A stretch of 64,000 nt of DNA, taken from contig PLUL01000064.1 of NCBI GenBank assembly GCA_003164895.1, forward strand, positions 1 through 64,000, given 5' to 3'. The notes beneath the pieces were generated by a model. It ran no database searches. It saw only the letters and a list, made by a program, of their open reading frames with translations, and was not told the DNA's origin. Position numbers and translations under genes: made by a program. Shown piece by piece: positions 476 through 28,394 of the stretch; position 1 is the stretch's first letter, and each line of letters opens with the position of its first letter. Source of the stretch: Bacteroidota bacterium (GTDB lineage Bacteria; Bacteroidota; Bacteroidia; Palsa-948).

Positions 476-693
476 CTTAGATGCTCATCCGTCAGGCAGA
501 GCAAATGTTTGAAACACGCCCATAAAAAATGTCATTAACGATAAATTAAAATGTTATTTTTCTCGGTTTGAAAACTACACAAAACGCATAAATGTTTATG
601 AGCTGCATCATATATTTTCAATTTTTTTTATGAGCAACATCATACCCTATAACAATTATTATGTGAAACTTTAGTTGGTTGATTTACAGATAT

Positions 694-5880: not shown

Positions 5881-5886
5881 AATAAT

Positions 5887-6861: not shown

Positions 6862-9338
6862 TGAAAAATGAAAGTAAACCATATGTCATTTTTTTTCAAA
6901 CTGTATTAACACTACTGATGCTGTATTCAGGAAACATAATCATTGCGCAAAAATACCTTGCAAAAGGAAATAAATATTTTGACCGAAATATGTTTCCTGA
7001 AGCAATTGCAAATTACAAACTGGAATTAGATAACGGAAAAGGAAAAAATAAAGACACCGCGTTGCTTCAGCTTGCAGAATGCTATCGGCTTACCGGTCAA
7101 TTTGAATTGGCGGAAGATGCGTATAAAAAAATTTCCAAGAAAAAAAAGAATGCTAAAAATATTTTGAATTATGCGTTGAGTTTAAAAGGAAGTTCAAAAT
7201 ATGCTGAAGCATCGGAGCAATTTAAAATATATGCAAAAATGAATCAAAGCGATCTGATGGGAAATGTTTACATCAACAGTTGTGATTCAGCGCAAAAGTG
7301 GCTGGACGAAAATATGGCAGAAGCAAAATATGAAGTGAAAAATATTGAACAGATAAATACTTCGGGCAGTGAATTTTCTCCTGCGTTTTACAAAGACGGA
7401 ATTGTTTTTTGTTCATCCAGAAAAGATTCCAAAAAAGCATTCATCAGTTTTAATGGCGGCGATGAAGTTATCTGCTTGGATTTGTATTACGAACCGTTGA
7501 ACTATCCGCCTGCAAATCTTCCGCCGCCCGAAAATTTGAGAGCACTGAATTCTCCTTTGCACGAAGGTCCGGCAGCTTTTACACGCGATGGCAAAGAAGT
7601 ATATTTTACACGAACGGTAAAAGGCAAACGCGAAAAAAATCAGAAAAAAGTTGTCAGCACATTGCAAATATTATATTCTAATAAAGATTCCGCAGGGAAA
7701 TGGAGCAAACCAAAAAGTGCTTTTAATTTTAATAGTTCTCAATATTCAGTTGCTCATCCCGGTTTGACAAAAAGTGGCAACCGTTTATATTTTATGTCGG
7801 ACATGCCGGGTGGATATGGAGGAACCGATATCTATTATGTAGAAAAAGAGGATGACGGTTCATGGGGAAAACCGATAAATCTTGGTCCCGAAGTAAATAC
7901 ATTCGGACATGAAATGTATCCGTTCATTGCGAGTGATAATACACTTTATTTTTCTTCGGATGTTCATCCGGGCATGGGCAAACTCGATATTTTTTCGGCT
8001 CGTTTTGACGGTGTGAAATGGACGAATATTACAAACCTTAAACCTCCCATCAATTCTATCGGTGATGATTTTTCTTTTATCATTTCAGATGATAACGAGA
8101 CAGGATTTTTCAGTTCTGACCGTTTTAATGGAAAAGGTGCTGAAGATATTTATGGATTCATTGATATGAAACCGATGACACTTTCTATCAACGGAGATTC
8201 TTTGGAATTTAAAGACCACTCTTTGTTAGATGGAATTACTTACAAACTCATCAATAATGAAACGAATGTCGAAGATGTGCTGGTATCACAAAATGGAAAA
8301 TATTCTTTTACAATTCCCGAAGAAAAAACGTTCATGCTCTCCTCAAGAAAGGAAGGATTTTCATATAACAAAGTTGAATTAACTGTCAAAAAGAATACTG
8401 AAAATGATTACTTGCGTGCTTACATCATTCCTAAACAGCGGGGAATTTCTGTGAACGGAATATTATTGGATGATACTAAAAGCAAAGATTCTGTTTCTGA
8501 GCAGAAGCGCCTTCCTTTAACAGGCATCACGGTTTCCCTGTTTGATTCAACAAAAACAATTTGCAGCAGCAAAACAAATAACAATGGTTTTTTTGCTTTG
8601 AGTAAAAAACTATTGCCCGGAAAAAAATATTTAGTTGTTGCCAAAAAGAAAATCAATGCCGTAAAACAAGAAACAAAAACGGTAACAGCTACTAAAGAAC
8701 CGGTAAAACAAATTGCACCTGACACAACAACTCTTATTAAAATTACCGGAACGGTGAAAAGCAGAAGAGGAATAATTCCAAATTCGACAATTTCCATTAA
8801 TGATACGCTTGGAAGAATAAAACAAATTACAAGCAATGAATATGGACAATATAATTTTCTCATTACAGCTTATCATAAATATTATTTCTCTATTTCTCAA
8901 AAAGGATATTTGCCAAAAGAAATTACCGTTGAAGTTGACAAGAAAAACAAACAAATTTTTCGTGACATTGAATTATCCGAAATAAAAGTTGATACGATTA
9001 TTAAATTGGATAATGTTTATTACGATTACAATAGCGCTGTCATACAAAATGGGTCGCTTCCTTCCTTGAGCAAATTGATTGATTTCATGGAAGCCAATCC
9101 CGATGTAAATATCGAACTAAGCGCACACACCGACAGCCGCGGAGATGATGCGTATAATTTAAAATTATCGCAAGCGCGAGCTCAAACGGTAAAAGATTAT
9201 TTAGTGGTTTCGGATATTGAACCATTCCGAATTATCGCAAAAGGATATGGAAAAACAAAACCCATTATAAAAAATGCGCAAACCGAAATCGAGTATCAAA
9301 AAAACAGAAGAACAGAATTTAAAATTCTAAAAAAATAA
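6861..9338 (+). CDS. PorE-like OmpA-family protein (TPR, PD40 propeller, carboxypeptidase-like regulatory domains, OmpA C-terminus)
   Basis: Periplasmic or outer-membrane-associated protein of 825 residues. In order: a signal peptide; TPR-like helices (about 30-150) with the pattern AIANYKLELDNGKGK; a WD40-like/PD40 beta-propeller (about 165-430) with repeated YFSSD/YFMSD strands; two or three carboxypeptidase regulatory-like Ig folds (about 440-700); and a C-terminal OmpA domain (about 710-825) whose HTDSRGDDAYNLKLSQARA motif binds peptidoglycan. This is the architecture of Porphyromonas PorE (PG1058), which links the T9SS to the cell wall, with extra regulatory-like domains here. The ATG overlaps the stop of the PorP/SprF gene (TAATG). 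A T9SS role is inferred from architecture and context; many paralogues exist in Bacteroidota. Confidence 0.88.
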   Translation: MKNESKPYVIFFQTVLTLLMLYSGNIIIAQKYLAKGNKYFDRNMFPEAIANYKLELDNGKGKNKDTALLQLAECYRLTGQFELAEDAYKKISKKKKNAKNILNYALSLKGSSKYAEASEQFKIYAKMNQSDLMGNVYINSCDSAQKWLDENMAEAKYEVKNIEQINTSGSEFSPAFYKDGIVFCSSRKDSKKAFISFNGGDEVICLDLYYEPLNYPPANLPPPENLRALNSPLHEGPAAFTRDGKEVYFTRTVKGKREKNQKKVVSTLQILYSNKDSAGKWSKPKSAFNFNSSQYSVAHPGLTKSGNRLYFMSDMPGGYGGTDIYYVEKEDDGSWGKPINLGPEVNTFGHEMYPFIASDNTLYFSSDVHPGMGKLDIFSARFDGVKWTNITNLKPPINSIGDDFSFIISDDNETGFFSSDRFNGKGAEDIYGFIDMKPMTLSINGDSLEFKDHSLLDGITYKLINNETNVEDVLVSQNGKYSFTIPEEKTFMLSSRKEGFSYNKVELTVKKNTENDYLRAYIIPKQRGISVNGILLDDTKSKDSVSEQKRLPLTGITVSLFDSTKTICSSKTNNNGFFALSKKLLPGKKYLVVAKKKINAVKQETKTVTATKEPVKQIAPDTTTLIKITGTVKSRRGIIPNSTISINDTLGRIKQITSNEYGQYNFLITAYHKYYFSISQKGYLPKEITVEVDKKNKQIFRDIELSEIKVDTIIKLDNVYYDYNSAVIQNGSLPSLSKLIDFMEANPDVNIELSAHTDSRGDDAYNLKLSQARAQTVKDYLVVSDIEPFRIIAKGYGKTKPIIKNAQTEIEYQKNRRTEFKILKK

Positions 9339-9343
9339 ATATT

Positions 9344-9799
9344 ATGAAAAAATCAATTAACGTAGTCATTTGTATTTTGATTTTCACTTTTCATTTTTCA
9401 CTTTTCACTTCCGCTTTCGCACAATGTACTTCGGATGCATTTTTAGATAAATGCGCCTCGTCATTGGGAGAATTCACTTTCATTAAATCTTTCAATATTA
9501 CTATAGACAAAAAAAGTTCTGACAGTAAATATGAATACTCCTACGTTTTCAGCAAAGGGTCAACTTATAAAATAATTATTTGCGATGAAAATATTAACGG
9601 CAACAAAATGATTGTAACTCTTTTCGATAGAAATCACAAACTGATTGCTACCAATTTTAATAAAGCAAGTAAAAAGTTTTATCCTTTATTCAGCTATCCA
9701 TGCTCAGCTACCGGAGTATATTATCTAGAAGTAACATTTGAAAATGGAAAAGAAGGTTGCGGAGTTAATATTTTAGGATTCAGCAAACAATTCAATTAA
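9344..9799 (+). CDS. Small secreted protein, paralogue of the protein at 51334-51804
   Basis: A 151-residue protein with a strong signal peptide ending in TSAFAQC. The mature part looks like a compact beta-sandwich and has no family I can name. It aligns with the product at 51334-51804: both have an aromatic strand, then YK(I/L)(I/V)(I/F)C, a (V/I)T(L/I)(F/Y)D strand, a TGxY(Y/F)(L/I)E strand and a late GC-V-ILG motif. It starts 6 nt after the PorE-like gene and precedes the sensory cluster. Its paralogue sits next to a paralogue of the lipoprotein at 22410-23315, which implies a functional link between the two families. It could be a periplasmic sensor or adaptor subunit. The function is unknown. 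Confidence 0.75.
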   Translation: MKKSINVVICILIFTFHFSLFTSAFAQCTSDAFLDKCASSLGEFTFIKSFNITIDKKSSDSKYEYSYVFSKGSTYKIIICDENINGNKMIVTLFDRNHKLIATNFNKASKKFYPLFSYPCSATGVYYLEVTFENGKEGCGVNILGFSKQFN

Positions 9800-9836
9800 T
9801 TATAGAATAATAAATAAAAACCAAAACTAAAATTAT

Positions 9837-12464
9837 ATGAAAAACTTCGACATCTGGGGCAAACTCTTTCGAGACATCTCCATTCGCAATAAATTTTACA
9901 CATCCTTTTTCTGGATTACATTTTTTCTTCTTGCTTCTTATGCAGGAGGTTTTTACTCCTTCAATTTGGGCAAAGGAGATGCGCGGAATATTGATGTTGC
10001 CGGAAGAACGCGCATGTTAAGTCAAAAATTATATGCACTATCTGTAATTTCATTGAACGAGGATGTTGCAATAAGCAATCCGGCTAAAACAGAACTTGCA
10101 GTTACTATTACAACACTCGATAATATTTACGACCTGTTTGAAACCGGTGGATCAATTAACAAAATTGAAAATTCTACCGATGTTATTAAACCGATGGAAG
10201 GTTTAGAAAACCAAAATAAATTAAAAGAAATACGATCTGTTTTTGAGGAACACAAACGGCTGTGCAATGTTATTATCAATGAACCCACTTATACCATTAA
10301 GACCACAATTCCAACTGATCCGGGTTTTGATTTATTTCAAACCGCACACGATAGCGTTAATACTGCAAAAGCAGCATCTCAAAAATTTATTAATCCCAAA
10401 GTAAAAAATGCGGTTAATAAATTACAGCAACTTGCAATAGAAGGAACATTATTAAAAAACAACCAGCAGCTTGTTTCTTTTTTTACCGATCTCGAAGCTC
10501 ATCATAGGACGATGAATCAAATTGAATTCATTATATTTTCAATCATAACTTGTATTGTAATACTTTTTAATTTTCTATTAATACAATTTTATGTTGTTAA
10601 TCCAATTAATAAAATTTCAAAAGCAGCCAGTCAAATTGCCGAAGGAAATATTAAAACAACTATTACTCATAATATAAAGGACGGACTTGGAAAAATAGTT
10701 AATTCCATTACCACGCTTGCAAGCAATTTGCGAAAAGCCGCTGAGTTTACAGTTAAAATTGGAGAAGGTCATTTTGATGCAAAATATGATGTGGTAGTAG
10801 CCGAAGGAACGGATGAAAAAGATAATCTTTCATCCGCTTTGCTCAATATGCGCGACCGGCTTAAGAATGTGGCGGATGAAGATAAAAAGCGCAACTGGGC
10901 TACCGAAGGGTTTGCCAAGTTTGGTGAAATTCTCCGAAGCAATTCGGATGATCTGAAAAAATTATCCGACGACATCATTTCCCATCTTGTAAAATATCTA
11001 AATGCAAACCAAGGAAGTTTATTTATTGTAAATGATTTTGATTCGAAAGATGTTCATCTCGAATTAACCGCTTGCTACGCATGGAACAGAAAAAAATTTC
11101 TGCAAAAGAAAATTGTGATGGGCGAAGGATTGGTCGGGCAAGTATGGCAGGAAGGCGAAAGTGTTTTTATGACCGATGTTCCCAATGATTATGTTCAAAT
11201 CACTTCCGGTCTTGGAGAAGCAAACCCCAACAGCATTCTTATTGCGCCTTTAAAAATAAATGACAAGATTTTCGGAATATTAGAAATAGCTTCTTTCAAA
11301 CCGTTTGAAAAATTTGAAAATGAATTTGTAGAAAAACTTGGAGAAAGCATTGCGTCCACCATTTCAGGTGTAAAAATAAATGCCAGAACCAAAAAACTTT
11401 TGGAAGAATCGCAGCAAATGACTGAAGAAATGAAAGCGCAGGAAGAAGAAATCCGTCAGAACATGGAAGAGATGCAGGCAACTCAGGAAGAAATGATACG
11501 TGCGCAAGATGAAATGAAAGCGATGAATACTATTACAGATAATGTTGCCATTGTTTCCAAAACCGACCTCAAAGGAAACATCACTTTTGTAAACGACGAG
11601 TTTTTAAAATGGTCAAAATATACACGCGAAGAGTTATTGGGGAAAAATCATCGTATTCTTAAATCTGGACAGCAACCCAATGAACTATTTGTTGAAATGT
11701 GGAAAACCATTAGCAGCGGAAAAGTATTTAGGGGAGAAATAAAAAACAAAGCAAAGGATGGCACCTATTATTGGGTGGATGCAGTAATTGCCCCTATTTT
11801 AGATAAGAACGGAAAAATCAGGGAATATGTTGCTCAGCGATTTGTGATTAATGAAAAAAAGAAGAAAGAAGAAGAAACGCAGCATATGCTGGAAGAAGTA
11901 AAAGCACAGGAAGAAGAATTGCGTCAGAACCTCGAAGAAATGCAGGCAACTCAGGAAGAAATGAACAGAGTGCAGGCAGAACTGCAAACACAAATGAACA
12001 TTGTAAATGCAACAGCATTGGTTTCAAAAACAGATTTGAAAGGAAATATCACTTATGCCAACGATGAATTTTGCCGTGTTGCCAAATACACACGCGAAGA
12101 ATTAATCGGCAAGAATCACAATATTGTTCGTCATCCCGATATGCCAAAAGCCGCATTTGAAGATTTATGGAAAACAATCAGCTTAGGAAAAGTTTGGCGT
12201 GGGCAAGTGAAAAATAAAGCCAAAGACGGTTCTCATTATTGGGTGGATGCAACCATTGCTCCGATTATCGGCACCAACGGAAAACCAAAAGAATACATGG
12301 CGGTGCGCTATTTAATAACCGAAGCCAAAGAACGCGAAGAAAAATTAAAAGAAAGAATAAGCAAATTTGAAAAACAGGCGGCACACGAAATGGAAATGGA
12401 AATGGAAATAGATGACTTGAAGAAAAAACTTGAATTAGAAAAAAAATCAAAAAGATTAAACTAA
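9837..12464 (+). CDS. Membrane sensor: PilJ-like/HAMP/GAF/Aer-type PAS-PAS, no output domain
   Basis: An 875-residue receptor. TM1 (about 17-44) and TM2 (about 231-252) flank a periplasmic helical region that starts with DVAGRTRMLSQKL, the PilJ/NarX-type four-helix sensor signature. HAMP (about 253-305) and a second HAMP-like segment lead to a GAF domain (about 359-514, GEGLVGQ motif), a coiled coil, PAS1 (about 570-670), a second coiled coil, and PAS2 (about 725-828). PAS2 contains HNIVRHPDMPKAAF and closely follows the FAD-binding PAS of the aerotaxis receptor Aer; PAS1 is a variant with HRILKSGQQP. No histidine kinase, GGDEF or MCP signalling domain is present. The coiled coils carry QATQEEM repeats like those in CheB-CheR-PAS proteins, which makes them candidate targets of the CheR/CheB pair downstream. 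Redox sensing is inferred. Confidence 0.85.
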   Translation: MKNFDIWGKLFRDISIRNKFYTSFFWITFFLLASYAGGFYSFNLGKGDARNIDVAGRTRMLSQKLYALSVISLNEDVAISNPAKTELAVTITTLDNIYDLFETGGSINKIENSTDVIKPMEGLENQNKLKEIRSVFEEHKRLCNVIINEPTYTIKTTIPTDPGFDLFQTAHDSVNTAKAASQKFINPKVKNAVNKLQQLAIEGTLLKNNQQLVSFFTDLEAHHRTMNQIEFIIFSIITCIVILFNFLLIQFYVVNPINKISKAASQIAEGNIKTTITHNIKDGLGKIVNSITTLASNLRKAAEFTVKIGEGHFDAKYDVVVAEGTDEKDNLSSALLNMRDRLKNVADEDKKRNWATEGFAKFGEILRSNSDDLKKLSDDIISHLVKYLNANQGSLFIVNDFDSKDVHLELTACYAWNRKKFLQKKIVMGEGLVGQVWQEGESVFMTDVPNDYVQITSGLGEANPNSILIAPLKINDKIFGILEIASFKPFEKFENEFVEKLGESIASTISGVKINARTKKLLEESQQMTEEMKAQEEEIRQNMEEMQATQEEMIRAQDEMKAMNTITDNVAIVSKTDLKGNITFVNDEFLKWSKYTREELLGKNHRILKSGQQPNELFVEMWKTISSGKVFRGEIKNKAKDGTYYWVDAVIAPILDKNGKIREYVAQRFVINEKKKKEEETQHMLEEVKAQEEELRQNLEEMQATQEEMNRVQAELQTQMNIVNATALVSKTDLKGNITYANDEFCRVAKYTREELIGKNHNIVRHPDMPKAAFEDLWKTISLGKVWRGQVKNKAKDGSHYWVDATIAPIIGTNGKPKEYMAVRYLITEAKEREEKLKERISKFEKQAAHEMEMEMEIDDLKKKLELEKKSKRLN

Positions 12465-12500
12465 AAAAATAATAATCACACAAATTAAATCTAAAAAATT

Positions 12501-12914
12501 ATGGCAGCACTTATTCAATGGGACAACGCAAAATACAGCGTAAAAATTAACAGCATAGATGAGCAGCACAAAAAATTAGTAGCACTCATTAATCAACTCT
12601 TTGAAGCAATGTCAAAAGGCGAAGCGCACGAGCAGCTTAGCGCAATTATTCAAGAGTTGATAAAATATACCGAAACTCACTTCGGAACGGAAGAAGCTTA
12701 CTTTAAAAAATTCGGTTATGACAATTCTGCCGAACATGAAAACGAACACAAAAAATTTGTGGAACAAATTAAAAAGTTTCAAAGCGATTTTGAAGTAGGC
12801 AGCGTAACCTTATCGAAAGACATAATATTCTTTTTAAAAGATTGGCTGATTAATCATATTTGCGGAACCGATCAGCATTACACCGATTTCTTGCTGAGCA
12901 AAGGAGTAAAATAA
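12501..12914 (+). CDS. Bacteriohemerythrin (non-heme di-iron oxygen-binding protein)
   Basis: A 137-residue single-domain hemerythrin of standard length. All expected iron ligands can be placed: H23 (DEQHKKL), H60 and E64 (THFGTEE), H79 and H83 (EHENEHKKF), H119 and D124 (NHICGTD). The N-terminal IQWDNAKYSVKINSIDEQH block is typical of the family. Bacteriohemerythrins bind O2 reversibly and serve in oxygen sensing, delivery or scavenging. The position, 37 nt after a receptor with an Aer-type PAS domain and just before a cytochrome b5-like gene and CheR, points to oxygen or redox signalling. It is cytoplasmic, with no signal peptide. Confidence 0.95.
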   Translation: MAALIQWDNAKYSVKINSIDEQHKKLVALINQLFEAMSKGEAHEQLSAIIQELIKYTETHFGTEEAYFKKFGYDNSAEHENEHKKFVEQIKKFQSDFEVGSVTLSKDIIFFLKDWLINHICGTDQHYTDFLLSKGVK

Positions 12915-12927
12915 TGGTTGACTTGAT

Positions 12928-13167
12928 TTGGAAAATAAAAAAGAATACACAAAAGAAGAGCTTGCTTTGCGAAACGGCAAAACAATGCCCGATGTTTGGG
13001 TTGCCTATAAAGGATTGATATATGATGTTACACGTTCTGAACTTTTTGAAGATGGCGAGCATTATTTTCATTCTTCGGGATGCGATTTGACAGAAGAAAT
13101 GGAAGGTGCGCCTCATTTGGATGATGTGATGGATGAATTTATTGTGGTTGGAAAATTAATTGAATAG
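12928..13167 (+). CDS. Cytochrome b5-like heme-binding domain protein
   Basis: A 79-residue stand-alone cytochrome b5-like domain, with YTKEELALRNGK at the N-terminus, VAYKGLIYDVT, then GEHYFHSSGCDLTEEM and APHLDDVM. H45 or H48 together with H63 are the candidate axial heme ligands. The start is TTG at 12928; the nearby ATG at 12914 is in another frame and gives only a short peptide, while TTG gives the complete domain. The gene follows the hemerythrin by 13 nt. Small bacterial b5-like proteins are poorly understood; here the domain could pass electrons or sense redox state or heme for the receptor upstream. The function is inferred from domain and context only. Confidence 0.85.
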   Translation: MENKKEYTKEELALRNGKTMPDVWVAYKGLIYDVTRSELFEDGEHYFHSSGCDLTEEMEGAPHLDDVMDEFIVVGKLIE

Positions 13168-13199
13168 TAACGAATAATAAACAACAAATGTCTATATAA

Positions 13200-14045
13200 A
13201 TGAGCGACAATTCTAATATAGAAACGAACGAAATCACAATCAATGAAATAAAACGATTGATTGCGTTTGTGAAAATGCAATACAAGTTTGATTTCGGCAA
13301 CTATGCGTTGTCTTCGTTCAAAAGAAGAATTGAGAGAATTCTTTCTTTAAATTCTTTTGCAACCATTGATGAATTGATTGTTAAACTTCAGAACGATTCC
13401 AAATTTTATGATGAGTTTCTCCGCGAAGTTACGGTTAACACCACCGAAATGTTCCGGTCGCCTTCGCTTTGGAGAAAACTCCGCGATGAAATTCTGCCGA
13501 TTCTTGCCAATTATCCTTCCATTCGTATTTGGAGTGCGGCATGTTCTTCCGGTGAAGAAGTTTACTCGCTTGCCATTGTTCTGAAAGAAGCCGGACTGCT
13601 TCACAAAGCAAAAATACTTGCTACGGATATTAATGATGTTGTTTTACAAAAAGGAAAAGATGGAACGTATTGGAACCGAAACATGGAAGTAAATGAAAAT
13701 AATTATCTGCGCTTTGAGGGGAAATATAAATTATCGGATTACTATTCAAAGAAAGATGACAATGTGGTTTTTGATAAAAGTTTAATTCAGGATGTTTCAT
13801 TCAAAACGTTTGATCTGGTTCAAAACGAACAGTATTCAAAGTTCGACCTTATTTTTTGCCGCAACGTGATGATATATTTTAATCCTGAATTGCAAAATAA
13901 AGTAGTTGATTTATTTGGCAGAAGTTTATTTATGAAAGGATTTTTTATTGTCGGAGAAAAAGAAACCATTGCTTTCTGCAAGAGCAGTGAACGATTTGAA
14001 ACATTCAGCGCGGAAGAAAGAATATATCAGAAAATAAAAGAATAA
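13200..14045 (+). CDS. cheR: CheR-type glutamate O-methyltransferase
   Basis: A 281-residue CheR. It has the N-terminal alpha-helical CheR_N domain (about 12-70), then the SAM-binding domain with VNTTEMFRSPSLWRKL, IWSAACSSGEEVYSLA (SAM loop), ILATDIN and the terminal motif FDLIFCRNVMIYF. CheR methylates glutamates of receptor coiled coils using SAM. No canonical methyl-accepting signalling domain is encoded in the window, so the substrate is probably an unusual coiled coil, plausibly that of the receptor at 9837-12464. The stop overlaps the cheB start (TAATG), which suggests translational coupling. Confidence 0.95.
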   Translation: MSDNSNIETNEITINEIKRLIAFVKMQYKFDFGNYALSSFKRRIERILSLNSFATIDELIVKLQNDSKFYDEFLREVTVNTTEMFRSPSLWRKLRDEILPILANYPSIRIWSAACSSGEEVYSLAIVLKEAGLLHKAKILATDINDVVLQKGKDGTYWNRNMEVNENNYLRFEGKYKLSDYYSKKDDNVVFDKSLIQDVSFKTFDLVQNEQYSKFDLIFCRNVMIYFNPELQNKVVDLFGRSLFMKGFFIVGEKETIAFCKSSERFETFSAEERIYQKIKE

Positions 14046-14608
14046 TGCTGACAGGATATAAAGCGATAGTGATTGGCGGGTCAGCGGGAAGTTTTCCGGT
14101 GGTAATGAAAATATTGAATAACATACCAAAGAATATAAATATGCCACTCATATTTTGTCTGCATCGGCTCAAACATGTTCGTCATGGCGTGGTGGAAGCG
14201 TTGGGTACAAGGTCGGTAATTCCGGTTGTTGAACCAAACGATAAAGACCCGGTGAAAAACGGAATTGCATATATAGCTCCGGCAAATTATCACATGATGG
14301 TGGAGCTAAACTGTACGTTTGCATTATCAACCGAAGACATGGTGAATTATTCCCGCCCCGCAATTGATTTAACTTTTGATACGGTATCGTATGCGTATCG
14401 GGAAAAACTTATTGCAATTATTTTATCTGGAGCAAACTCGGATGGAGCAAAAGGAATGAAGATTGCAAAAAGCAGAGGCGCGCTTACCCTCGTCCAGCAT
14501 CCGGATGAAGCAACCATAAAAACAATGCCCGAATCTGCTTTGAAAGCAACCAATGTTGATAAATTATTTACAAGCGATGAAATCGTAAAATTTTTGAAAA
14601 CCCTATAA
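14045..14608 (+). CDS. cheB: CheB methylesterase catalytic domain without receiver domain
   Basis: A 187-residue protein that is only the CheB methylesterase domain. The catalytic triad is visible: S13 in GGSAGS, H40 in IFCLHR and D133 in SGANSDGAKG. Classical CheB carries an N-terminal CheY-like receiver that is phosphorylated by CheA; it is absent here, which fits the lack of CheA, CheW and CheY in the cluster. Activity must be unregulated or controlled another way. It is coupled to cheR by a one-base overlap. Together the pair would set the methylation state, and hence adaptation, of a non-canonical receptor. Confidence 0.93.
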   Translation: MLTGYKAIVIGGSAGSFPVVMKILNNIPKNINMPLIFCLHRLKHVRHGVVEALGTRSVIPVVEPNDKDPVKNGIAYIAPANYHMMVELNCTFALSTEDMVNYSRPAIDLTFDTVSYAYREKLIAIILSGANSDGAKGMKIAKSRGALTLVQHPDEATIKTMPESALKATNVDKLFTSDEIVKFLKTL

Positions 14609-14612
14609 TAAA

Positions 14613-15227
14613 GTGAAAACTATTTTAATCATAAGCGCTGCAATAAATTTTATTCTCTTGTTTTTTCTTTTGAGAAGACGAAGAAAAATTTCCGTTGAAG
14701 CTGCTGCTGAAATTGAAAAAACAGATTTGAAAAAATCTGACGAGAAAAAAACAGATACCATTCAATCCAAAATAAATCAATTTAAACTTTTTGCTGACGG
14801 ATTAGCTGATGAAAAAAATAATTGCGAAAAACTTTTATCAAAAATTGCTTCCGAAGTTCAAGCAGTTCAGGGCGTGTTGTATTTATTGCATACTCACGAT
14901 GAGCGAACTTTTCTCCGTTTTCATTTCGGCTACGCGTTTTCTTGTCCTGAAAGTAAACCGATTGAATTTGAAATGGGTGAAGGATTAATCGGGCAGGTGG
15001 CAAAAGACAAAACTATTTTGAATCTTAATACGGTTTCGGAGGAACACGCTCCTGCAATTTCCGGACTGGGAAAAACAGTAGCGCAATATTTAATTATTTG
15101 TCCGCTTGTTAAAAATGAAATCTTAATTGGCGTGATGGAATTATCGGCATTTCATCCGTTTGAATCAGAATCAGAAAAATTTATTGAAGCTGCAACAAAA
15201 ATAATGTCAGAAAATTTGAAATCGTGA
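14613..15227 (+). CDS. Membrane-anchored GAF domain protein
   Basis: A 204-residue protein beginning at GTG, with one N-terminal transmembrane helix (about residues 3-17) followed by a basic stretch (LRRRRK), a charged linker and one GAF domain (about 50-204). The GAF domain contains GEGLIGQVAKDKTILNL and a terminal strand ILIGVMELSAFHPFE. It closely resembles the GAF domains in the receptor upstream and in the phosphatase downstream, which suggests duplication within the cluster. The ligand is unknown. Its TGA overlaps the GTG start of the phosphatase gene (GTGA), so the two are translationally coupled and may form one complex. Confidence 0.85.
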   Translation: MKTILIISAAINFILLFFLLRRRRKISVEAAAEIEKTDLKKSDEKKTDTIQSKINQFKLFADGLADEKNNCEKLLSKIASEVQAVQGVLYLLHTHDERTFLRFHFGYAFSCPESKPIEFEMGEGLIGQVAKDKTILNLNTVSEEHAPAISGLGKTVAQYLIICPLVKNEILIGVMELSAFHPFESESEKFIEAATKIMSENLKS

Positions 15228-17689
15228 AAATAAAAACAATCATATCGGCTCTTATCGGATTTATTTCAGGAATATTATTTCTGCTGGTAATATGGATTAT
15301 TTCAGCAAGAAATAATGGCGCAGAATTTTCTTTAGATTTTGTTATCGGTCTTCATCATTCATCGCGTTTATTTTGGTTTGCGATGGATGCTGTTCCCGTT
15401 TTCCTAACTTTTATATGTGGCGCGCTTGGATTTTATTACAACTATCGTCTTTCTTCCATTAATAAAAAAGTTGAAGAGCAAGCGGCAAGTATGAAAAAAG
15501 TTGGCGCGTTTGTTGAAAAAATCGGACAAGGTGATTTGAATTTTGAATATCAAAACGGACACGATAATATTGGCGCAGCGTTAATAAAAATGCGCGACAA
15601 TCTTCGCAAAACAGCTCAAGATGAGCACGACCGAAAATGGAAAATGGAAGGAACGACAGGATTGGGAGAAATTTTGCGCACCTATACCGATTTATCCGAG
15701 TTGGGTTATCACCTGATTGTATTTCTCATAAAAAAATGCAACGCAATTCAGGGAGCTTTTTATACGATTGAGGAAGATGATGACAAGCTGGCGCTCATCC
15801 GCATGAAAGCATGTTATGCTTATAACCGGAAAAAATATCTTGTCCGCGAATTTAAAATCGGAGAAGGATTAGTCGGACAATCGGCAATAGAGCGGGAATT
15901 TATTTACAGAACAGAAATACCCGATAATTATTTTTCCATCACATCGGGAATTTGGGGCGATAAAAAACCAAACAGTTTGTTAATTGTTCCCTGCATTTCA
16001 AACGATACACTTTATGGAGTGATTGAAATTGCGTCTTTAAATAAATTTAATAAACTGGAGATCGAATTTATAAAAGAAGTAAGCAAAGTTATCGGGCAAA
16101 CTATTTTTAATCTTGGTGTGAATGAACGGACGGCAAAACTTCTGGATGAAGTAAATAAAAGCCAGAAAAAACTGCACGCCCTGCTGGAGAATGCTTCTGA
16201 AATAATTTCTATTTACGATGAGAATGAAATTGTGCGCTATGAAAGTCCTTCGGCAAAACATATTTTGGGATATACACCGGAAGAAATGGTGGGCAACACT
16301 TCGTATCAACGCGTGCATCCAAAAGGAATTGAATCGGTAAGAGGAATGTTCGTAAAATTAAAGGAAGACCCACGCAATACGGTAACCATTCAGATAAGTT
16401 ATATCAAAAAAGATGGCAACAAAATTTGGCTCGAAGTAACTGGAAAAAATATGCTGCACGATGCGGCAATTCGCGGCATCATTGTAAATTCCAGAGACAT
16501 TACCGAAAAACGAAAGGCGGAAAAAGAGCAACGACTGCGAGGACAAATGCAATCGCTTTCCGAAAATAGTCCTGATTTGATTTTGCGCATCGGCATTGAC
16601 GAACAGATTTTTTACATAAATCCAACCGTTGAATCTCTTACAGGAAAAGGAACTGCGGAATATTTGCAAAAATCTTTTTCTTATGTGGATTTTCCAAATT
16701 CAATTATCGAAGAATGGAGAAAAGATATTGCCGCAATTATTAAGGAGAATAAAAAAATTACAAAAGAATTATCTTTTCCTACTATCAACGGCGATAAGAT
16801 GATGCAAATGAATATTATTCCCGAATACAATGAAACTAAACTTGAAACGCTTCTGATTGTTGCGCATGACATCACCGAGCAGAAGAAAAATGAGAATCGC
16901 ATCAACGAACAAAATAAAAAAATTACCGAGAGCATAAATTATGCTCAGCGAATTCAAAATTCAATTATTCCGACTGGAAACACGCTGAAACAATATTTGC
17001 CCGATTCATTTATTTTTTACAAACCAAAAGATGTGGTTAGTGGTGATTTCCCTTGGATGTTTGTCAAGGAAGATGAAATTTATGTTGCCGCTGTGGATTG
17101 CACCGGACACGGAGTTCCTGGCGCGCTGATGTCATTCATCGGTCATTTTAGTTTAAATCAGATTCTTACTTCTGAAAAATTACCGACCACAGGCACAACG
17201 CTCGATTTGTTGCATCAAAATGTTCAGCGAACTTTAAGGCAAGATACGGGCGACAGTAAATCGCGTGACGGAATGGATATTGCCCTGTGCCGAATTAATC
17301 TGAAGAAAAAAGAATTGCAATTCTCCGGAGCGCATCGTCCGCTTTATTATTTGAAAAAGGAAAATAATGAACTTGTGTTTAACGAAGTGAAAGCCGACCG
17401 TTATCCCATTGGCGGATTTCATTATAAGAATCGCGAGAAATTTACAAATCATATCATATCATTTAAAAAAGGAGAATCCATATTTTTCTTTACAGACGGA
17501 CTTCCTGACCAATTTGGCGGACCCGATGGAAAAACAAAATTCATGAGCGGAAGAGTTCAGGAATTTATTAAACAAAATTCTCAAGTATCAATGGAAGAAA
17601 TAGGTTTTCTCTTTCAACACGAATTTGAAGAATGGAAAGGAAGTCATAAACAAATGGATGATGTATTATTAATCGGAATAAGATTTTAA
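15224..17689 (+). CDS. GAF-PAS-PAS PP2C/SpoIIE phosphatase, SiaA-like
   Basis: An 821-residue membrane phosphatase. Two TM helices (about 8-27 and 45-68) lead to a HAMP-like linker (about 75-130), a GAF domain (about 145-300; GEGLVGQSAIERE), two PAS domains (about 314-432 and 440-555), a coiled coil with ITESINYAQRIQNSIIP, and a C-terminal PP2C/SpoIIE domain (about 572-821). Metal-binding PP2C motifs are present: DVVSGDF, DCTGHGVPGAL, DGMD, FTDGLPDQFGG and MDDV. In Pseudomonas aeruginosa the HAMP-PP2C protein SiaA dephosphorylates SiaC. The SiaB and SiaC genes directly follow here, so this enzyme is the likely SiaC phosphatase with a different sensory front end. The start is GTG, overlapping the previous stop. 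Confidence 0.9.
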   Translation: MKIKTIISALIGFISGILFLLVIWIISARNNGAEFSLDFVIGLHHSSRLFWFAMDAVPVFLTFICGALGFYYNYRLSSINKKVEEQAASMKKVGAFVEKIGQGDLNFEYQNGHDNIGAALIKMRDNLRKTAQDEHDRKWKMEGTTGLGEILRTYTDLSELGYHLIVFLIKKCNAIQGAFYTIEEDDDKLALIRMKACYAYNRKKYLVREFKIGEGLVGQSAIEREFIYRTEIPDNYFSITSGIWGDKKPNSLLIVPCISNDTLYGVIEIASLNKFNKLEIEFIKEVSKVIGQTIFNLGVNERTAKLLDEVNKSQKKLHALLENASEIISIYDENEIVRYESPSAKHILGYTPEEMVGNTSYQRVHPKGIESVRGMFVKLKEDPRNTVTIQISYIKKDGNKIWLEVTGKNMLHDAAIRGIIVNSRDITEKRKAEKEQRLRGQMQSLSENSPDLILRIGIDEQIFYINPTVESLTGKGTAEYLQKSFSYVDFPNSIIEEWRKDIAAIIKENKKITKELSFPTINGDKMMQMNIIPEYNETKLETLLIVAHDITEQKKNENRINEQNKKITESINYAQRIQNSIIPTGNTLKQYLPDSFIFYKPKDVVSGDFPWMFVKEDEIYVAAVDCTGHGVPGALMSFIGHFSLNQILTSEKLPTTGTTLDLLHQNVQRTLRQDTGDSKSRDGMDIALCRINLKKKELQFSGAHRPLYYLKKENNELVFNEVKADRYPIGGFHYKNREKFTNHIISFKKGESIFFFTDGLPDQFGGPDGKTKFMSGRVQEFIKQNSQVSMEEIGFLFQHEFEEWKGSHKQMDDVLLIGIRF

Positions 17690-17713
17690 TAAACCATACT
17701 AACAAAAATAACA

Positions 17714-18856
17714 ATGGAAGATAAAAGTAATAATTCACTAATGTATGTAACGCAGTTGCGTGAAAAAATGCAAAAACATAGATTCATGCTTGCTTACCGG
17801 GGATTTTTTTCTCAGGAAATTACAAAAGCGCTTCTTGCCGGCACAGAAAAAAAACTTTTGCTTGAAGGGGTTGATTCCACCATCAAGAAAAAAGTGTTCA
17901 ACGTGATGGTAGAATGTTTGCAAAATATCTGCAAGCACGAAGACGATTTGAGTTCTTCCTTGTTTATGATTGGAAAATTGCTTGATGATTATGTTTTGTA
18001 TAGCGGAAATATTATCATGCAAAACAAAAAACAATCGTTGAGGAATAAGCTGGAAGCCATCAACAGCATGAATCTCGACGACCTGAAAGAACTTTATAAA
18101 TCGCTCATCACATCAAATACATTATCGGAAGAAGGCGGCGCAGGTCTTGGCTTGATTGACATTGCAAAAAAATCGGGTAGCAAACTTGATTTCCATTTTG
18201 AAGACATGACGAATCAGGACGCGTATTTTTCATTACGCACCGTAATTAAATCTCATTTGGAAAGCGGCGGCGCATCTTCTCCGTTAGCCGAAAATGCAAA
18301 CGCTCCGATTTCGTATGTATATGAATTATATAAAACAATGGCGAGTAATAATATCATTCTTATTTACGAAGGAGATTTTACTCAGGAGATTACAAAAATT
18401 GTTCTTTCGATGACAGAAAGGAAATTTGATGCCGAAGGAATTGACGCAGCGTTAAAGAAAAAAGTTTTTAACGTGATGGTGGAAAGTTTACAAAATATCT
18501 GCAAGCACCAATACTCCGTTGAAAATTCTGATTATGTTCCTTCCATTTTTATGATTGGAAATAATAATAAGGAAGAATTTTCCATCATATCAGGCAATGT
18601 GATTCACAACAATGCCATTCCTCCTTTGCAGGAAAGAATTGACCAGATTAATACGCTTGATAAAGAAGGATTAAAACTTTTGTATAAACAAGTGCGCTTG
18701 GCTTCTACCATTTCTGAAGTTGGCGGAGCCGGACTTGGTTTTATTGACATGGCGCGAAAATCAGAAAACAAACTTTCATACAGCTTCGACAAAATCAATG
18801 ACCGCATTTCATTTTTCACATTAATGACGATGGTATCAATAAAAGCAACGGTATAG
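17714..18856 (+). CDS. SiaB-family protein kinase, tandem fusion of two SiaB domains (DUF6272)
   Basis: A 380-residue protein built from two copies of a domain of about 180 residues (about 8-183 and 200-380). Each copy has VFNVMVE(C/S)LQNICKH, an N-box-like helix (61-75 and 251-265), and a Gly-rich EEGGAGLGLIDIAKKSG or EVGGAGLGFIDMARKS segment, a G-box-like loop of an atypical HATPase fold. This matches SiaB, the kinase that phosphorylates SiaC. SiaB is normally one domain of about 180 residues; the fusion is unusual and would give an obligate pseudo-dimer. The gene lies between the PP2C phosphatase and SiaC. Both copies keep the putative ATP-binding motifs. Confidence 0.88.
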   Translation: MEDKSNNSLMYVTQLREKMQKHRFMLAYRGFFSQEITKALLAGTEKKLLLEGVDSTIKKKVFNVMVECLQNICKHEDDLSSSLFMIGKLLDDYVLYSGNIIMQNKKQSLRNKLEAINSMNLDDLKELYKSLITSNTLSEEGGAGLGLIDIAKKSGSKLDFHFEDMTNQDAYFSLRTVIKSHLESGGASSPLAENANAPISYVYELYKTMASNNIILIYEGDFTQEITKIVLSMTERKFDAEGIDAALKKKVFNVMVESLQNICKHQYSVENSDYVPSIFMIGNNNKEEFSIISGNVIHNNAIPPLQERIDQINTLDKEGLKLLYKQVRLASTISEVGGAGLGFIDMARKSENKLSYSFDKINDRISFFTLMTMVSIKATV

Positions 18857-18890
18857 AAATTAAAATATTAACTCTAAAAAATAAATAAAC

Positions 18891-19265
18891 ATGGAACCAT
18901 TAATTCTCAAAGGAACAGAAGACACTCCTTCAATAACATTGGATAACATTAACAAACAATATGAAATTTCTGGGCGTTCATTGCCCGAAGATGTAGTATT
19001 GTTTTATCAGCCGGTGCTCGACTGGTTGAATTTATATTCTGAAAAACCTGCGGAAGAAATGGTTTGGAAATTCAAATTGGAATATTTCAACACCGCATCT
19101 TCTAAAATCATTCTGGATATTCTGATGAAGTTGGAAGAAATTAATGAGAAAGGAACAAATGTGATTGTGCAATGGCATTACGACCAAAAAGATAATGATA
19201 TGATGGAAGCCGGAGAAGAATATAAAGATTTGGTAGGATTAACTTTTGAGATGGTTGGGTTTTAA
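18891..19265 (+). CDS. siaC: SiaC-family regulatory phosphoprotein (DUF1987)
   Basis: A 124-residue protein of the SiaC/DUF1987 family, with a fold similar to anti-sigma factor antagonists. It has the family's N-terminus (ILKGTEDTPSITLD), the SGRSLPEDVVLFY block and the YFNTASSKIILDIL helix. T68 in NTASS falls at the same position as the phosphorylated Thr68 of P. aeruginosa SiaC. There SiaB phosphorylates and SiaA dephosphorylates this residue, and the unphosphorylated form activates the diguanylate cyclase SiaD. No GGDEF protein is encoded in this window, so the partner must differ. The closest candidate is the ABC exporter immediately downstream. Confidence 0.93.
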   Translation: MEPLILKGTEDTPSITLDNINKQYEISGRSLPEDVVLFYQPVLDWLNLYSEKPAEEMVWKFKLEYFNTASSKIILDILMKLEEINEKGTNVIVQWHYDQKDNDMMEAGEEYKDLVGLTFEMVGF

Positions 19266-19293
19266 ATTTTCCCACCAATTGAATTTTTAATTT

Positions 19294-22200
19294 ATGAGTG
19301 AAGAAATTCTAAAAGCATTGATGGAACTCTTTGCCATTATCTCTAAACAAGATACCGGCAGCAATGCGCTTCATCGTGAATTTGTTTCCACATTTCTTAC
19401 CAGCCAATTAAGCAAAAATAAAGTAGAAGAATATTTATTGCTCTATGATGTTATTTTAAATAAACCGGATAAAAACGAACACAAAGAAGTTACTAAACTT
19501 ACTTCGGTAAAAGATTCAGTTAAAATTCTTGCGATTTGCAGAAAAATAAATAAAACGCTCACACAAAAACAAAAAATTGTTGTGTTAGTCAGATTGTATG
19601 AATTGGTAAAGTCGGACAATTCGCTTACCGCTCAACGCGCGCAAATTATTAATACCGTTTCAACTGTTTTTAGAATTGATATCCAAGAATCCAAATTAAT
19701 TGAGAGCTATGTTCTGGATGACAATCCAAATTCTTACGAGTCAAACAATGTTTTGCTGATTGATAATAAAAAAGAATCTGCTGCGATTAGCGAGAATGGC
19801 ATCAATCATTTTGTTGCCGATGGATTAGATGGTTTCATAAAAGTCATTCGGGTTGAAAGTGTAAATCTTTTCTTTTTAAAATACCTTGGAAGCGCTGAAC
19901 TTTTTCTAAACGGACTTCCTCTTTCAAAAAGTTCTATTTACATTTTACCGCACGGCAGCACATTGAGATTGCCGAGAGGAACTATTTATTACAGCGAAGT
20001 AGTTTCCATTTTTTTAAAAAATGTAAGCGAAACAGAATTGCTTTTCAACGCGCAAAATATTACTTATGTTTTTCCGAATGGAAAAGTTGCTCTCACCGAT
20101 ATTAACATTTGTGAAAAATCCGGCACACTCGTTGGCATCATGGGCGCAAGCGGCGCAGGCAAAAGCACTTTATTAAATGTACTTTCTGGATTGGAAATTC
20201 CTTCGCAAGGAAGCATCACGATAAACGATGAAGATATTTTTAAAGACAAAGAAAAATTAAAAGGCGTAATCGGTTACATAGCGCAGGACGACCTTTTGAT
20301 TGAAGAACTCACTGTTTTTCAAAATTTATATTACAATGCAAAATTGTGTTTCAAAAATAAAACGGAAGAAGAAATAAAAGAAAAGGTAACGCAAACACTT
20401 TCCAATCTGGGATTATTGGAAGCGAAAGATATTAAGGTGGGTTCGCCTCTCCACAAAACGATTAGTGGCGGACAAAGAAAGAGATTAAATATTTCCTTGG
20501 AACTTATTCGTGAACCATCGGTTCTTTTTGTGGATGAACCGACATCGGGATTGTCCTCAAGAGATTCTGAAAATGTAATGGACCTTTTAAAAGAATTAAC
20601 CCAAAAAGGAAAATTGATTTTTGTTGTTATTCATCAACCATCTTCCGATATTTTTAAAATGTTTGATAAAATTGTTTTGCTGGATGTTGGCGGATATCAG
20701 ATTTATTACGGCAATGCGATTGAATCCATTATGTATCTCAAAAAAGCGTCCAATCAAATTAACAGCGAGATTGGCGAGTGTGAAACGTGCGGAAATGTTA
20801 ACCCTGAAATGTTATTTAATATCATCGAAGCGAAAGAAGTGGATGAATACGGACATTACACGCTTGAACGGAAAATGTCGCCGCACAATTGGTATGAAAT
20901 GTTTAAAGCCAAATTCAAATTGGAAGTTGGCAAAGCGGGAAAAAACCTTCCGAAAAGTATTTTTAATATTCCGAATAGAATAAAACAATTTTCAATTTTT
21001 ATTACTCGCGATGTACTTTCTAAAATCAGTAACCGACAATATTTATTACTCAGTTTGCTTGAAGCTCCGTTGCTGGCTTTTATCCTTTCGTTTATCATTC
21101 GGTATAACGACACTAATGAAAAATCGCGTTATGTTTTTATGGATAATGAAAATATACCCGCTTATATTTTCATGTCCGTAATTGTTGTTTTGTTTTTAGG
21201 ATTAACAATCAGCGCAGAGGAAATCTACAAAGACAGAAAAATTTTGAAGAGAGAACGATTTCTAAATTTAAGTCGTCTCAGTTATTTATCTTCTAAAGTC
21301 ATTATTCTGATATTTATTTCAGCCATTCAGTCCGCTTTGTTTGTATTGATTGGCAATTATATTGTTGGAATAAAAGGAATGTTTTTTGCTTACTGGCTGA
21401 TGTTATTTTCCGTTTCGTGTTTTGCAAATATTTTAGGACTGAATATTTCATCCGCTTTCAATTCGGCAGTTACTATTTACATTTTAATACCGCTTCTTGT
21501 AATTCCGCAAATGATTTTAGGTGGCGCTATGTTTAGTTATGAAAAATTGAACAGAGCGGTTGGCGGCGGATATCAAGTTCCAAAAATAGCCAGCGCGATG
21601 ACTGCTCGATGGGCGTATGAAGGATTAATGGTAAATCAATATGTGAATAATAATTTTGACAATATATTTTTTACTAATGATAAAAAAATCAGCAGCGCTA
21701 ATTATAAATTAGCTTATTATCTTCCTGAATTACTTAACATACGAACTACAATTTCAGATAATTTGGATATAGTTAAAGTAAAAAACAAATATGTTTTCTT
21801 ATTAAATGAATTGGAGAAAGAAAAAAAGATTTCAGGCGTTGATTTTAAAATCAGCAATGATTCGATAAATCCTCTTGCCATTCGTAATAACTTAAATGAA
21901 ATTTATTTAGTAATTCAAAAGCTGAAAACTCATTATTCAGATATACTTAATAAATCAGATAACGAAAAAAGCAAGATGGTTGTTTCACTTACCGGAGATC
22001 CGATTTCCAGAAATAAATTTTATAGAATTAAGGAAGATTATTCAAACTCCTATCTCGCAGATATTGTTCACAATAACCAACTAGTAAGAAAATATATTGT
22101 TGAAAGAAACGGCATCAATCAAATCATTGATCCTGTTTTTCAGGACTCGAAAATCGGAATTGTTTCAATGAATGACCCTTTATTTATTGCCACTAAATAT

Positions 22201-22407
22201 TTATTTTACAAAAATATTCCTACTTTATTTTACAATATCATTATTATTTGGTTTATGTCTTTGGGCGGTTTTATACTGCTGTATTTTGATGTGCTGAAAA
22301 AAATAATTTCATTCAAGGGATTTAAAATGGCTTATCAGATGATAAATACGCTTGGAGTGGTTTCAAAAAAAATTACAACTACAAAACAACTGGACGAAAA
22401 CATTTAA
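19294..22407 (+). CDS. ABCG-type exporter half-transporter with N-terminal TerB/FHA-like region
   Basis: A 1037-residue fusion of ATPase and permease. Residues about 1-150 are helical and resemble TerB-like domains; about 155-245 contain a beta-rich, FHA-like segment (ELFLNGLPL, then ILPHGSTLRLP). The ATPase follows, with Walker A GASGAGKST near 283, signature ISGGQRKRLN, Walker B VLFVDEPTSGL and H-loop VIHQPSSD, all typical of the ABCG/White subfamily. The permease has about six TM segments (about 580-755, and one near 980) with a large extracytoplasmic loop between the last two. It starts 28 nt after siaC and ends 2 nt before the lipoprotein gene. Position and regulatory N-terminus suggest control by the SiaABC-like switch. 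The substrate is unknown. Confidence 0.88.
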   Translation: MSEEILKALMELFAIISKQDTGSNALHREFVSTFLTSQLSKNKVEEYLLLYDVILNKPDKNEHKEVTKLTSVKDSVKILAICRKINKTLTQKQKIVVLVRLYELVKSDNSLTAQRAQIINTVSTVFRIDIQESKLIESYVLDDNPNSYESNNVLLIDNKKESAAISENGINHFVADGLDGFIKVIRVESVNLFFLKYLGSAELFLNGLPLSKSSIYILPHGSTLRLPRGTIYYSEVVSIFLKNVSETELLFNAQNITYVFPNGKVALTDINICEKSGTLVGIMGASGAGKSTLLNVLSGLEIPSQGSITINDEDIFKDKEKLKGVIGYIAQDDLLIEELTVFQNLYYNAKLCFKNKTEEEIKEKVTQTLSNLGLLEAKDIKVGSPLHKTISGGQRKRLNISLELIREPSVLFVDEPTSGLSSRDSENVMDLLKELTQKGKLIFVVIHQPSSDIFKMFDKIVLLDVGGYQIYYGNAIESIMYLKKASNQINSEIGECETCGNVNPEMLFNIIEAKEVDEYGHYTLERKMSPHNWYEMFKAKFKLEVGKAGKNLPKSIFNIPNRIKQFSIFITRDVLSKISNRQYLLLSLLEAPLLAFILSFIIRYNDTNEKSRYVFMDNENIPAYIFMSVIVVLFLGLTISAEEIYKDRKILKRERFLNLSRLSYLSSKVIILIFISAIQSALFVLIGNYIVGIKGMFFAYWLMLFSVSCFANILGLNISSAFNSAVTIYILIPLLVIPQMILGGAMFSYEKLNRAVGGGYQVPKIASAMTARWAYEGLMVNQYVNNNFDNIFFTNDKKISSANYKLAYYLPELLNIRTTISDNLDIVKVKNKYVFLLNELEKEKKISGVDFKISNDSINPLAIRNNLNEIYLVIQKLKTHYSDILNKSDNEKSKMVVSLTGDPISRNKFYRIKEDYSNSYLADIVHNNQLVRKYIVERNGINQIIDPVFQDSKIGIVSMNDPLFIATKYLFYKNIPTLFYNIIIIWFMSLGGFILLYFDVLKKIISFKGFKMAYQMINTLGVVSKKITTTKQLDENI

Positions 22408-22409
22408 TT

Positions 22410-23315
22410 ATGAAAACACAAATAGTTAAACACGCTCTGTATTCTTTTTGTATTGCCGGAACATTTTTATCCTGCAATTCAAACGAAGACACTTTAAAAA
22501 TTGAACACGGAAAAGATTCTACAAAAACAGTTATTAATGTTTCGGAAAAAACTATTAATAACCTGATTCAATCTATTCCAAGTCCGATTGAAATGGCTTC
22601 AATTATAAAAGAATCGGGCGCGGAATACAATGAAAATATTCTTAACCCGTCAGAGAATTATAAAAAATACGGAACCAGCATGGATAAAGCCATCAATATT
22701 GGAATTTACAGTGCTGACCTCGGCTACATTAATATCTATGAAAAATCGCTTTCAAGTATTACCTATTTGCGTTCGATTAAAAATTTATCAAATGATATTC
22801 AGGTAGGACAATTTTTTGATTTTGAAACGCTGAATAAACTTGCATCCAACAATAAAAATATGGATTCATTGCTTTTCATCAGCACATCCTGTTTTAATAA
22901 AATGGATAAATACCTGCGTGAACACAAAAGAAATGAATTAAGTATTCTGATTATTACTGGAGCGTGGGTGGAAGGTTTGTATATTACTTCTGAAATCGCT
23001 AAGAGCAACAAAACTGATGCGCTGGTTGAAAATATTGGCGCACAAAAAATAAATATTGGAAACCTGATGGTGATTCTTGACCTTTATAAAGGCGACCCCT
23101 ACTTTAAAAAGCTGGGCGATTCATTCTCTAATTTGAAAAAAATTTATGATGGAATTACAATTACTTATGAATATAAAGAACCTGTTACAAAAGAAGTAAA
23201 CGGAGAATTAGTTATTGAGGATAACACTACAAGCAAAGTAGTTGTAACAGATGAACAACAAAAAACAATTCAGGAAGTAATAACAAAACTTAGAAAAGAA
23301 ATTATTTCATTATAA
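22410..23315 (+). CDS. Lipoprotein of unknown function, paralogue of the protein at 51819-52676
   Basis: A 301-residue protein with a signal peptide and a lipobox-like FLSCN near residue 22. The mature part is mostly helical. Conserved blocks shared with the product at 51819-52676 are SIPSPIEMA / SLPSPLVMA, the IGIYSADLGYI / LGVYSSDLAYV block, LSDD(L/I), IITGAWVEGLYI / IFTGAWVENMYI and a C-terminal (L/T)RKEI. I do not know a named family. It sits 2 nt after the ABC exporter and closes the cluster, so it may be a periplasmic or outer-membrane partner of the exporter. Both paralogous loci also encode a copy of the small secreted protein family seen at 9344-9799. Confidence 0.8.
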   Translation: MKTQIVKHALYSFCIAGTFLSCNSNEDTLKIEHGKDSTKTVINVSEKTINNLIQSIPSPIEMASIIKESGAEYNENILNPSENYKKYGTSMDKAINIGIYSADLGYINIYEKSLSSITYLRSIKNLSNDIQVGQFFDFETLNKLASNNKNMDSLLFISTSCFNKMDKYLREHKRNELSILIITGAWVEGLYITSEIAKSNKTDALVENIGAQKINIGNLMVILDLYKGDPYFKKLGDSFSNLKKIYDGITITYEYKEPVTKEVNGELVIEDNTTSKVVVTDEQQKTIQEVITKLRKEIISL

Positions 23316-24691: not shown

Positions 24692-24702
24692 ATTCGATGT
24701 GT

Positions 24703-25950: not shown

Positions 25951-25968
25951 GTTTGGTAAGGGGTTTAG

Positions 25969-26847: not shown

Positions 26848-26858
26848 GTTTTTCAAAA

Positions 26859-28391: not shown

Positions 28392-28394
28392 TGT

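Follow-up and report, generated by a model that had tools for sequence, protein, structure and literature searches.

Why should enzymes of chemotactic adaptation stand in one gene run with a SiaABC-type phosphoswitch and an ABCG-type exporter? The question is raised by twelve genes at 9344–23315 of contig PLUL01000064.1 from a Bacteroidota bacterium, within the 64,000-nucleotide stretch analyzed here (the window). Our results support one conserved system, whose order is kept far beyond chance. Within it, chemotaxis-type methylation enzymes probably tune a SiaA/B/C-type switch, and the switch probably controls the exporter; neither link was found described in the literature searched. We consider it likely that the locus is a signaling-to-transport operon in which a SiaABC partner switch, tuned by methylation, gates an envelope exporter.

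All twelve genes lie on the + strand, with intergenic distances from −4 bp to +37 bp. An earlier note on this DNA, made from the sequence alone, had counted the same twelve genes and called them often overlapping. Overlaps do occur, in two gene pairs (CheR/CheB by 1 bp and GAF/PP2C by 4 bp), making "often" a little strong. Domains were assigned by Pfam and NCBIfam profile searches, which agree with the family calls of that note for the receptor, hemerythrin, cytochrome b5-like protein, CheR, receiver-less CheB, GAF-PAS-PAS PP2C phosphatase, double SiaB, SiaC with T68, ABCG protein, and lipoprotein. The genes and their main parts are as follows.

9344–9799, + strand: PPC-like secreted protein, 151 residues, named PPC-like from reading its sequence; family accompanying the ABCG protein and lipoprotein
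9837–12464, + strand: membrane receptor PilJ-HAMP-GAF-coil-PAS-coil-PAS (Pfam/NCBIfam), without the signaling domain of methyl-accepting chemotaxis proteins (MCPs)
11394–11519, + strand: methylation-type coiled coil 1 (...RQNMEEMQATQEEM...); predicted methyl-accepting Glu545, codon 11469–11471
11862–11987, + strand: methylation-type coiled coil 2 (...RQNLEEMQATQEEM...); predicted methyl-accepting Glu701, codon 11937–11939
12501–12914, + strand: bacteriohemerythrin, lineage-specific accessory (NF033749, E 1e-43)
12928–13167, + strand: cytochrome b5-like protein, 79 residues, TTG start, accessory (PF00173, E 8e-8)
13200–14045, + strand: CheR methyltransferase (PF01739, E 5e-42)
14045–14608, + strand: CheB methylesterase domain only, without receiver (PF01339, E 5e-44)
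14613–15227, + strand: GAF protein with a hydrophobic N-terminal stretch, likely a membrane helix (PF01590)
15224–17689, + strand: SiaA-like PP2C/SpoIIE phosphatase, GAF-PAS-PAS-SpoIIE, hydrophobic N-terminus (PF07228, E 1.5e-16; NF038263)
17714–18856, + strand: double SiaB kinase, two DUF6272 lobes (PF19788 twice, E 5e-76; NF038262)
18891–19265, + strand: SiaC phosphoprotein, T68 codon 19092–19094 (PF09345, E 5e-39)
19294–22407, + strand: TerB–FHA-like–ABCG half-transporter with a long loop ahead of the last membrane helix
19294–19716, + strand: TerB domain of ABCG, residues 1–141 (PF05099)
19741–20019, + strand: FHA-like β domain of ABCG, about residues 150–242 (Foldseek)
20050–20703, + strand: ABC ATPase domain with Walker A, signature, Walker B, and H-loop intact (PF00005; invariant columns)
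22410–23315, + strand: lipoprotein of helical fold, lipobox Cys22 invariant

To what extent do these genes stay together? ABCG relatives are present in 180 of 345 genomes of the class, and neighborhoods were taken from the genomes with ABCG relatives and from 80 named loci of GTDB genomes. The order CheR-CheB-GAF-PP2C-SiaB-SiaC-ABCG-LIPO-PPC is found again in Cytophagales, Bacteroidales, and other groups (among them Marivirga, Cesiribacter, Persicobacter, Flexithrix, Splendidivirga, Saccharicrinis, Breznakibacter, and Salinivirgaceae), with the GAF protein keeping its place between CheB and PP2C. In some loci, such as those of Fulvivirga and Nafulsella, CheR is doubled, or parts are absent or lost at contig ends. 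The earlier note had deduced a single system from strand, spacing, and overlaps and had proposed comparing neighborhoods in relatives; the order proved conserved across Bacteroidota orders and not scattered. SiaB and SiaC stand in the gene run of ABCG in 61 of 133 ABCG loci, and the full set of SiaB, SiaC, CheR, CheB, and phosphatase does so in 41. A PPC homologue lies within eight genes of ABCG in 101 of the 133, usually downstream of ABCG and the lipoprotein; the window's PPC protein, whose family the earlier note had not recognized as traveling with these two, gave no significant Pfam match. The ABCG tree comprises two clades: in the operon clade, 61 of 79 loci have SiaB and SiaC in the run, and in the LIPO-PPC-ABCG clade 0 of 53 do. 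The window genome carries one ABCG of each, and its second copy (C27) has LIPO and PPC without SiaB and SiaC. Second-clade ABCGs sometimes adjoin SiaC or SiaB-SiaC (L022, L024, L045, L053, and L061).

The switch belongs, judging from its motifs and profiles, to the SiaABC kind, and the operon is neither a SiaABCD nor a chemotaxis system. The phosphatase matches the SiaA model NF038263 over the catalytic domain (E 2e-45), below that model's full-length cut-off, and the motifs SGD, DxTGHG, DGMD, and DD are kept across 56 operon phosphatases. Both SiaB lobes have intact E..QN...H and GGxGLG motifs. The PDB relatives are 6kko for SiaB and 6kko and 7e6g for SiaC. T68 is kept in 67 of 68 operon SiaCs, which also share a signature, YFNTASSK, that is mostly missing elsewhere (A69 in 65/68 operon copies versus 2/20 others). 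In the SiaC tree the operon SiaCs group together, with 6 changes versus 20.8 in shuffles, most forks of this tree being unresolved. Elsewhere in the window genome (G000) we noted six further SiaC loci (C7, C12, C27, C46, C52, and C78), one of them a tandem double SiaC, and only two further SiaB loci, leaving several SiaCs without SiaB nearby.

Which protein does SiaC act on? The known SiaC effector is the diguanylate cyclase SiaD, SiaC being the output arm in SiaABCD (PMC8457831). A genome-wide search found a GGDEF protein in 0 of 15 genomes carrying this ABCG family, with 8 of 14 control genomes positive, and a SiaD-type output is therefore excluded, as is SiaD or another diguanylate cyclase encoded elsewhere in the genome. 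The ABCG protein is a nucleotide-binding domain–transmembrane domain half-transporter, with Walker and signature motifs and an ABC2 membrane domain. All 67 aligned ABCG members match the TerB family PF05099 (best E 7e-12). The model of the TerB/FHA-like N-terminal region has a mean predicted local distance difference test score of 88, and in Foldseek searches with this region FHA domains took the top ranks (probability up to 1.00, E from 0.01), pointing to an FHA-like domain, placed after TerB and ahead of the ATPase, that the earlier note did not contain. No ABCG member matched Pfam FHA. With regard to a possible phosphothreonine-binding pocket, we note that Ser189 and Asn206 are invariant in the aligned ABCGs. 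Another invariant element, C-x-x-C-G-N-x-N-x-E at residues 494–505 in the stretch that links the ATPase to the membrane domain, is a possible metal or redox site.

Three loci (L027, L030, and L031) bear on the output. In each, a gene between SiaC and ABCG, directly upstream of ABCG, encodes a fusion: its first 230–250 residues match the ABCG N-terminus (TerB and FHA-like), and a SiaC domain makes up the final 120. At 23 bits, the N-terminal match of the L031 protein is weak. Because the same region heads the transporter and is fused to SiaC nearby, SiaC may act at the ABCG N-terminal region, and this fusion is the best evidence in our analysis that argues for SiaC working at that site. Together with the lack of GGDEF proteins, the fusions give strong but indirect support to a SiaC-to-ABCG output, which we regard as probable; the exporter had been named as the possible output in the earlier note. 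No work on SiaC/SiaB in Bacteroidota or on TerB-FHA-ABC proteins was found in the literature searched.

The lipoprotein gave no Pfam match, and assigning it a function by fold was given up after Foldseek against the PDB returned no match (best E 0.3). In second-clade modules LIPO often has one of two genes ahead of it, a desaturase-like gene in the window's own genus or a Kdo transferase-like gene in several others; the loci noted are L013 (C27 of the window genome), L047, L064, L109, L117, and L128. These neighbors were read by eye; they hint weakly at envelope lipids and were not used as substrate evidence.

We then asked what CheR and CheB could modify. Their residues are conserved in 49 aligned CheR and 46 CheB sequences, including S13, H40, and D133 of CheB. 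Genome-wide searches found no CheW domain, and hence no CheA, in 12 of the 15 operon-family genomes, and no MCP signaling domain in 13 of the 15, the window genome belonging to both groups. The absence of CheA, CheW, and SiaD, claimed earlier for the gene cluster, thus extends to the genome, and the absence of MCPs was added here. In both MCP-bearing genomes (G219 and G250) a che cluster adjoins the operon directly. MCPs encoded elsewhere were ruled out as the CheR substrate in the window genome and most others, and since MCPs are absent in most genomes, CheR and CheB need some other substrate.

A coiled coil, not mentioned in the earlier note, provides a candidate. CheR-bearing operons have, behind a GAF domain, a coil (...LRQNAEEMQATQEEL...) with a near-invariant QNxEExxATQEE. 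The window receptor contains two copies; many Bacteroidales have the coil in the upstream receptor, and Cytophagales have it inside the phosphatase itself. The MCP methylation consensus is EExxA(S/T) (PMC1079850), and the coil residues match it; real MCPs of the relatives read AEEVSSSMEEM in the same register. The core EExxATQEE is identical in 38 of 38 strict-pattern copies, with flanking E and Q invariant, although this invariance is somewhat circular, as the copies were partly gathered by motif (A/T was free to be S). A shuffle test of the motif (44/44 versus 0.4) was set aside as circular, its segments having been chosen by motif. By profile search the coil is present in 25 of 247 class genomes. 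All 25 have CheR, versus 85 of the 247 overall (hypergeometric p 2e-13), and by genus the figures are 12/12 versus 49/135 (p 2e-6), phylogeny being handled by counting genera only. MCPs are missing from 22 of the 25. In G219, a PilJ-HAMP-GAF receptor has the coil at its end, and operon-type CheR, CheB, and one further gene come after it. These data make the EExxAT coil, found here in the receptor, the likely CheR/CheB substrate, the methylation itself being predicted from motif identity and co-occurrence. A frame of 1548 residues with six copies of a methylation-type coil was also seen (G151:C58:11314–13788).

The earlier note had described the system as having a redox input. We rejected redox input as a core part, as nearly all relatives lack hemerythrin and cytochrome b5, which have the look of accessories specific to the lineage. 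Cytochrome b5 occurs in one other locus (L073), and the sister locus L067 has a gene of 139 residues, without a family assignment, at the place of hemerythrin. In G219, the che cluster that adjoins the operon includes a hemerythrin gene (L152:18005–18412), which stands between a CheW-like gene and CheR. Among PAS models, NifL-type flavin PAS gives the receptor PAS domains their best score; the receptor is predicted to sense flavin or nitrate, and redox sensing in the window lineage is plausible.

The mechanism that we propose runs as follows. Membrane GAF/PAS sensors (the receptor at 9837–12464 and the GAF-PAS-PAS phosphatase at 15224–17689) would integrate signals. At the EExxAT sites of the sensor coiled coil, the second Glu would be methylated reversibly by CheR and the receiver-less CheB. 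This would reset the gain of sensor and phosphatase much as adaptation does in chemotaxis, with no MCP, CheA, or CheW involved. The phosphorylation state of SiaC T68 would be set by the SiaA-like phosphatase together with the double SiaB kinase. One SiaC state, the unphosphorylated one by analogy with SiaC-SiaD, may dock on the TerB/FHA-like region of ABCG and switch export on or off, with the lipoprotein and PPC protein as putative envelope partners. Computation shows the parts and their conserved order, active-site motifs that are intact, and the fusion; it also shows that MCP, CheA, CheW, and GGDEF are absent and that the coil agrees with the methylation consensus and co-occurs with CheR. 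From order, fusion, motif identity, and co-occurrence we infer methylation, SiaC-ABCG binding, the direction of the switch, and the role in export.

Several points weigh against this interpretation, in addition to the partial circularity of the coil set and the genus-only treatment of phylogeny. The FHA-like call depends on Foldseek E-values of 0.01 or worse. The window genome has seven SiaC loci, so SiaCs have other jobs too. Some phosphatases carry the coil without CheR in the locus (L093 and L115, both at contig ends, and L123), and so do L079 (weaker), L081, L097, L104, and L142 (degenerate). One clade has ABCG-LIPO-PPC without SiaB and SiaC, and SiaC is therefore not obligatory for the transporter family. 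This solitary module, together with the SiaC paralogues that stand without ABCG in the window genome, would suit a switch acting on another cytoplasmic target, with the ABCG-LIPO-PPC genes merely co-transcribed. We hold such co-transcription to be quite unlikely in view of the SiaC/ABCG-N-terminus fusions, the position of SiaC immediately 5′ of ABCG even in the reduced loci L112 and L132, and the SiaC neighbors in both ABCG clades. Chance juxtaposition of unrelated signaling and transport genes, for which we found no supporting point, is refuted by dozens of genomes, from several orders, that share this gene order, and its probability is negligible.

The coil could also be a generic signaling helix, CheR and CheB having another substrate. 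Glu-rich coiled coils are common between GAF and PAS domains, and methylation of the coil is a sequence-based prediction; but its invariant residues are exactly the MCP methylation consensus, it is found in the class sample only in CheR genomes, it moves between receptor and phosphatase yet stays with CheR, and most coil genomes have no MCP. We judge this explanation unlikely, though the most credible of the four. Alternatively, ABCG might be the sensor: as in ABC transporter systems that sense flux, its transport cycle or its load of substrate would be reported to SiaC by way of the TerB/FHA-like region. The sequence does not fix the direction of information flow, and the LIPO and PPC partners could bind an external signal. 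However, separate sensors (receptor, GAF protein, and GAF-PAS phosphatase) already feed the switch, and SiaC is the output arm in SiaABCD (PMC8457831), leaving a sensor role for ABCG improbable, more so than either co-transcription or a generic helix. An ABCG protein that exports rather than senses is the reading that we retain.

If the preferred reading holds, methylation of receptors, until now linked with MCP-CheA arrays, would also serve as a stand-alone memory for phosphatase-driven switches. SiaC proteins, which are widespread and whose effector is mostly not known, would gain a second kind of output, the post-translational gating of an envelope exporter, and orphan CheR/CheB genes in bacteria without chemotaxis genes would be explained. 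Somewhat less firmly than the operon itself, we favor an adaptation class separate from chemotaxis, in which CheR and CheB would methylate EExxAT coils in PAS receptors or SiaA-type Ser/Thr phosphatases, giving the SiaABC switch a methylation memory, and in which the effector would be an ABC exporter, not a transcription factor or diguanylate cyclase. Exact residues for testing are E545, E701, T68, and ABCG 1–250, and Fulvivirga, Persicobacter, and Flexithrix are culturable Cytophagales.

The flanks of the operon hold other functions. A type IX secretion trio at 679–9338 (a PKD protein with a CHU_C tail, PorP/SprF, and an OmpA-like protein) ends 5 bp 5′ of the first operon gene and lies outside the conserved operon in relatives. 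Downstream, the minus-strand genes at 24290–29288 read as nucleoside salvage-like (cytidine deaminase, nucleoside transporter, aldehyde dehydrogenases, and deoC) and are unrelated to the operon.

How does the operon compare with known systems? With SiaABCD of Pseudomonas aeruginosa (PMC7647112, PMC8457831) it shares a PP2C phosphatase, a SiaB kinase, and SiaC with T68 in the same gene order. Unlike SiaABCD, it has no SiaD, in keeping with the GGDEF count across its family, and SiaC is followed by an ABCG exporter; SiaB is doubled, CheR/CheB are added, and the sensors are of the GAF/PAS type. With chemotaxis CheR/CheB (Escherichia coli Tsr/Tar; PMC1079850) it has in common a methyltransferase, a methylesterase with its catalytic triad, and EExxA(S/T) sites in the coiled coil of a membrane sensor. 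It differs from chemotaxis in having no MCP signaling domain, CheA, or CheW, in a CheB without receiver, and in its putative substrate, a PAS receptor or PP2C phosphatase. Wsp-type chemosensory systems couple CheR/CheB-type adaptation to a non-flagellar output and have an MCP, CheA, and a diguanylate cyclase, none of which the window operon encodes. Finally, the nearest parallel for the exporter is Rv1747-PknF of Mycobacterium tuberculosis (PMC3908365, PMC5549992), an ABC exporter that carries N-terminal FHA domains and is controlled by a Ser/Thr kinase encoded alongside. There the kinase is of the Hanks type and the FHA domains are canonical, whereas the window operon has SiaB and SiaC, a TerB domain, and a putative, non-canonical FHA-like domain recognized by Foldseek only.

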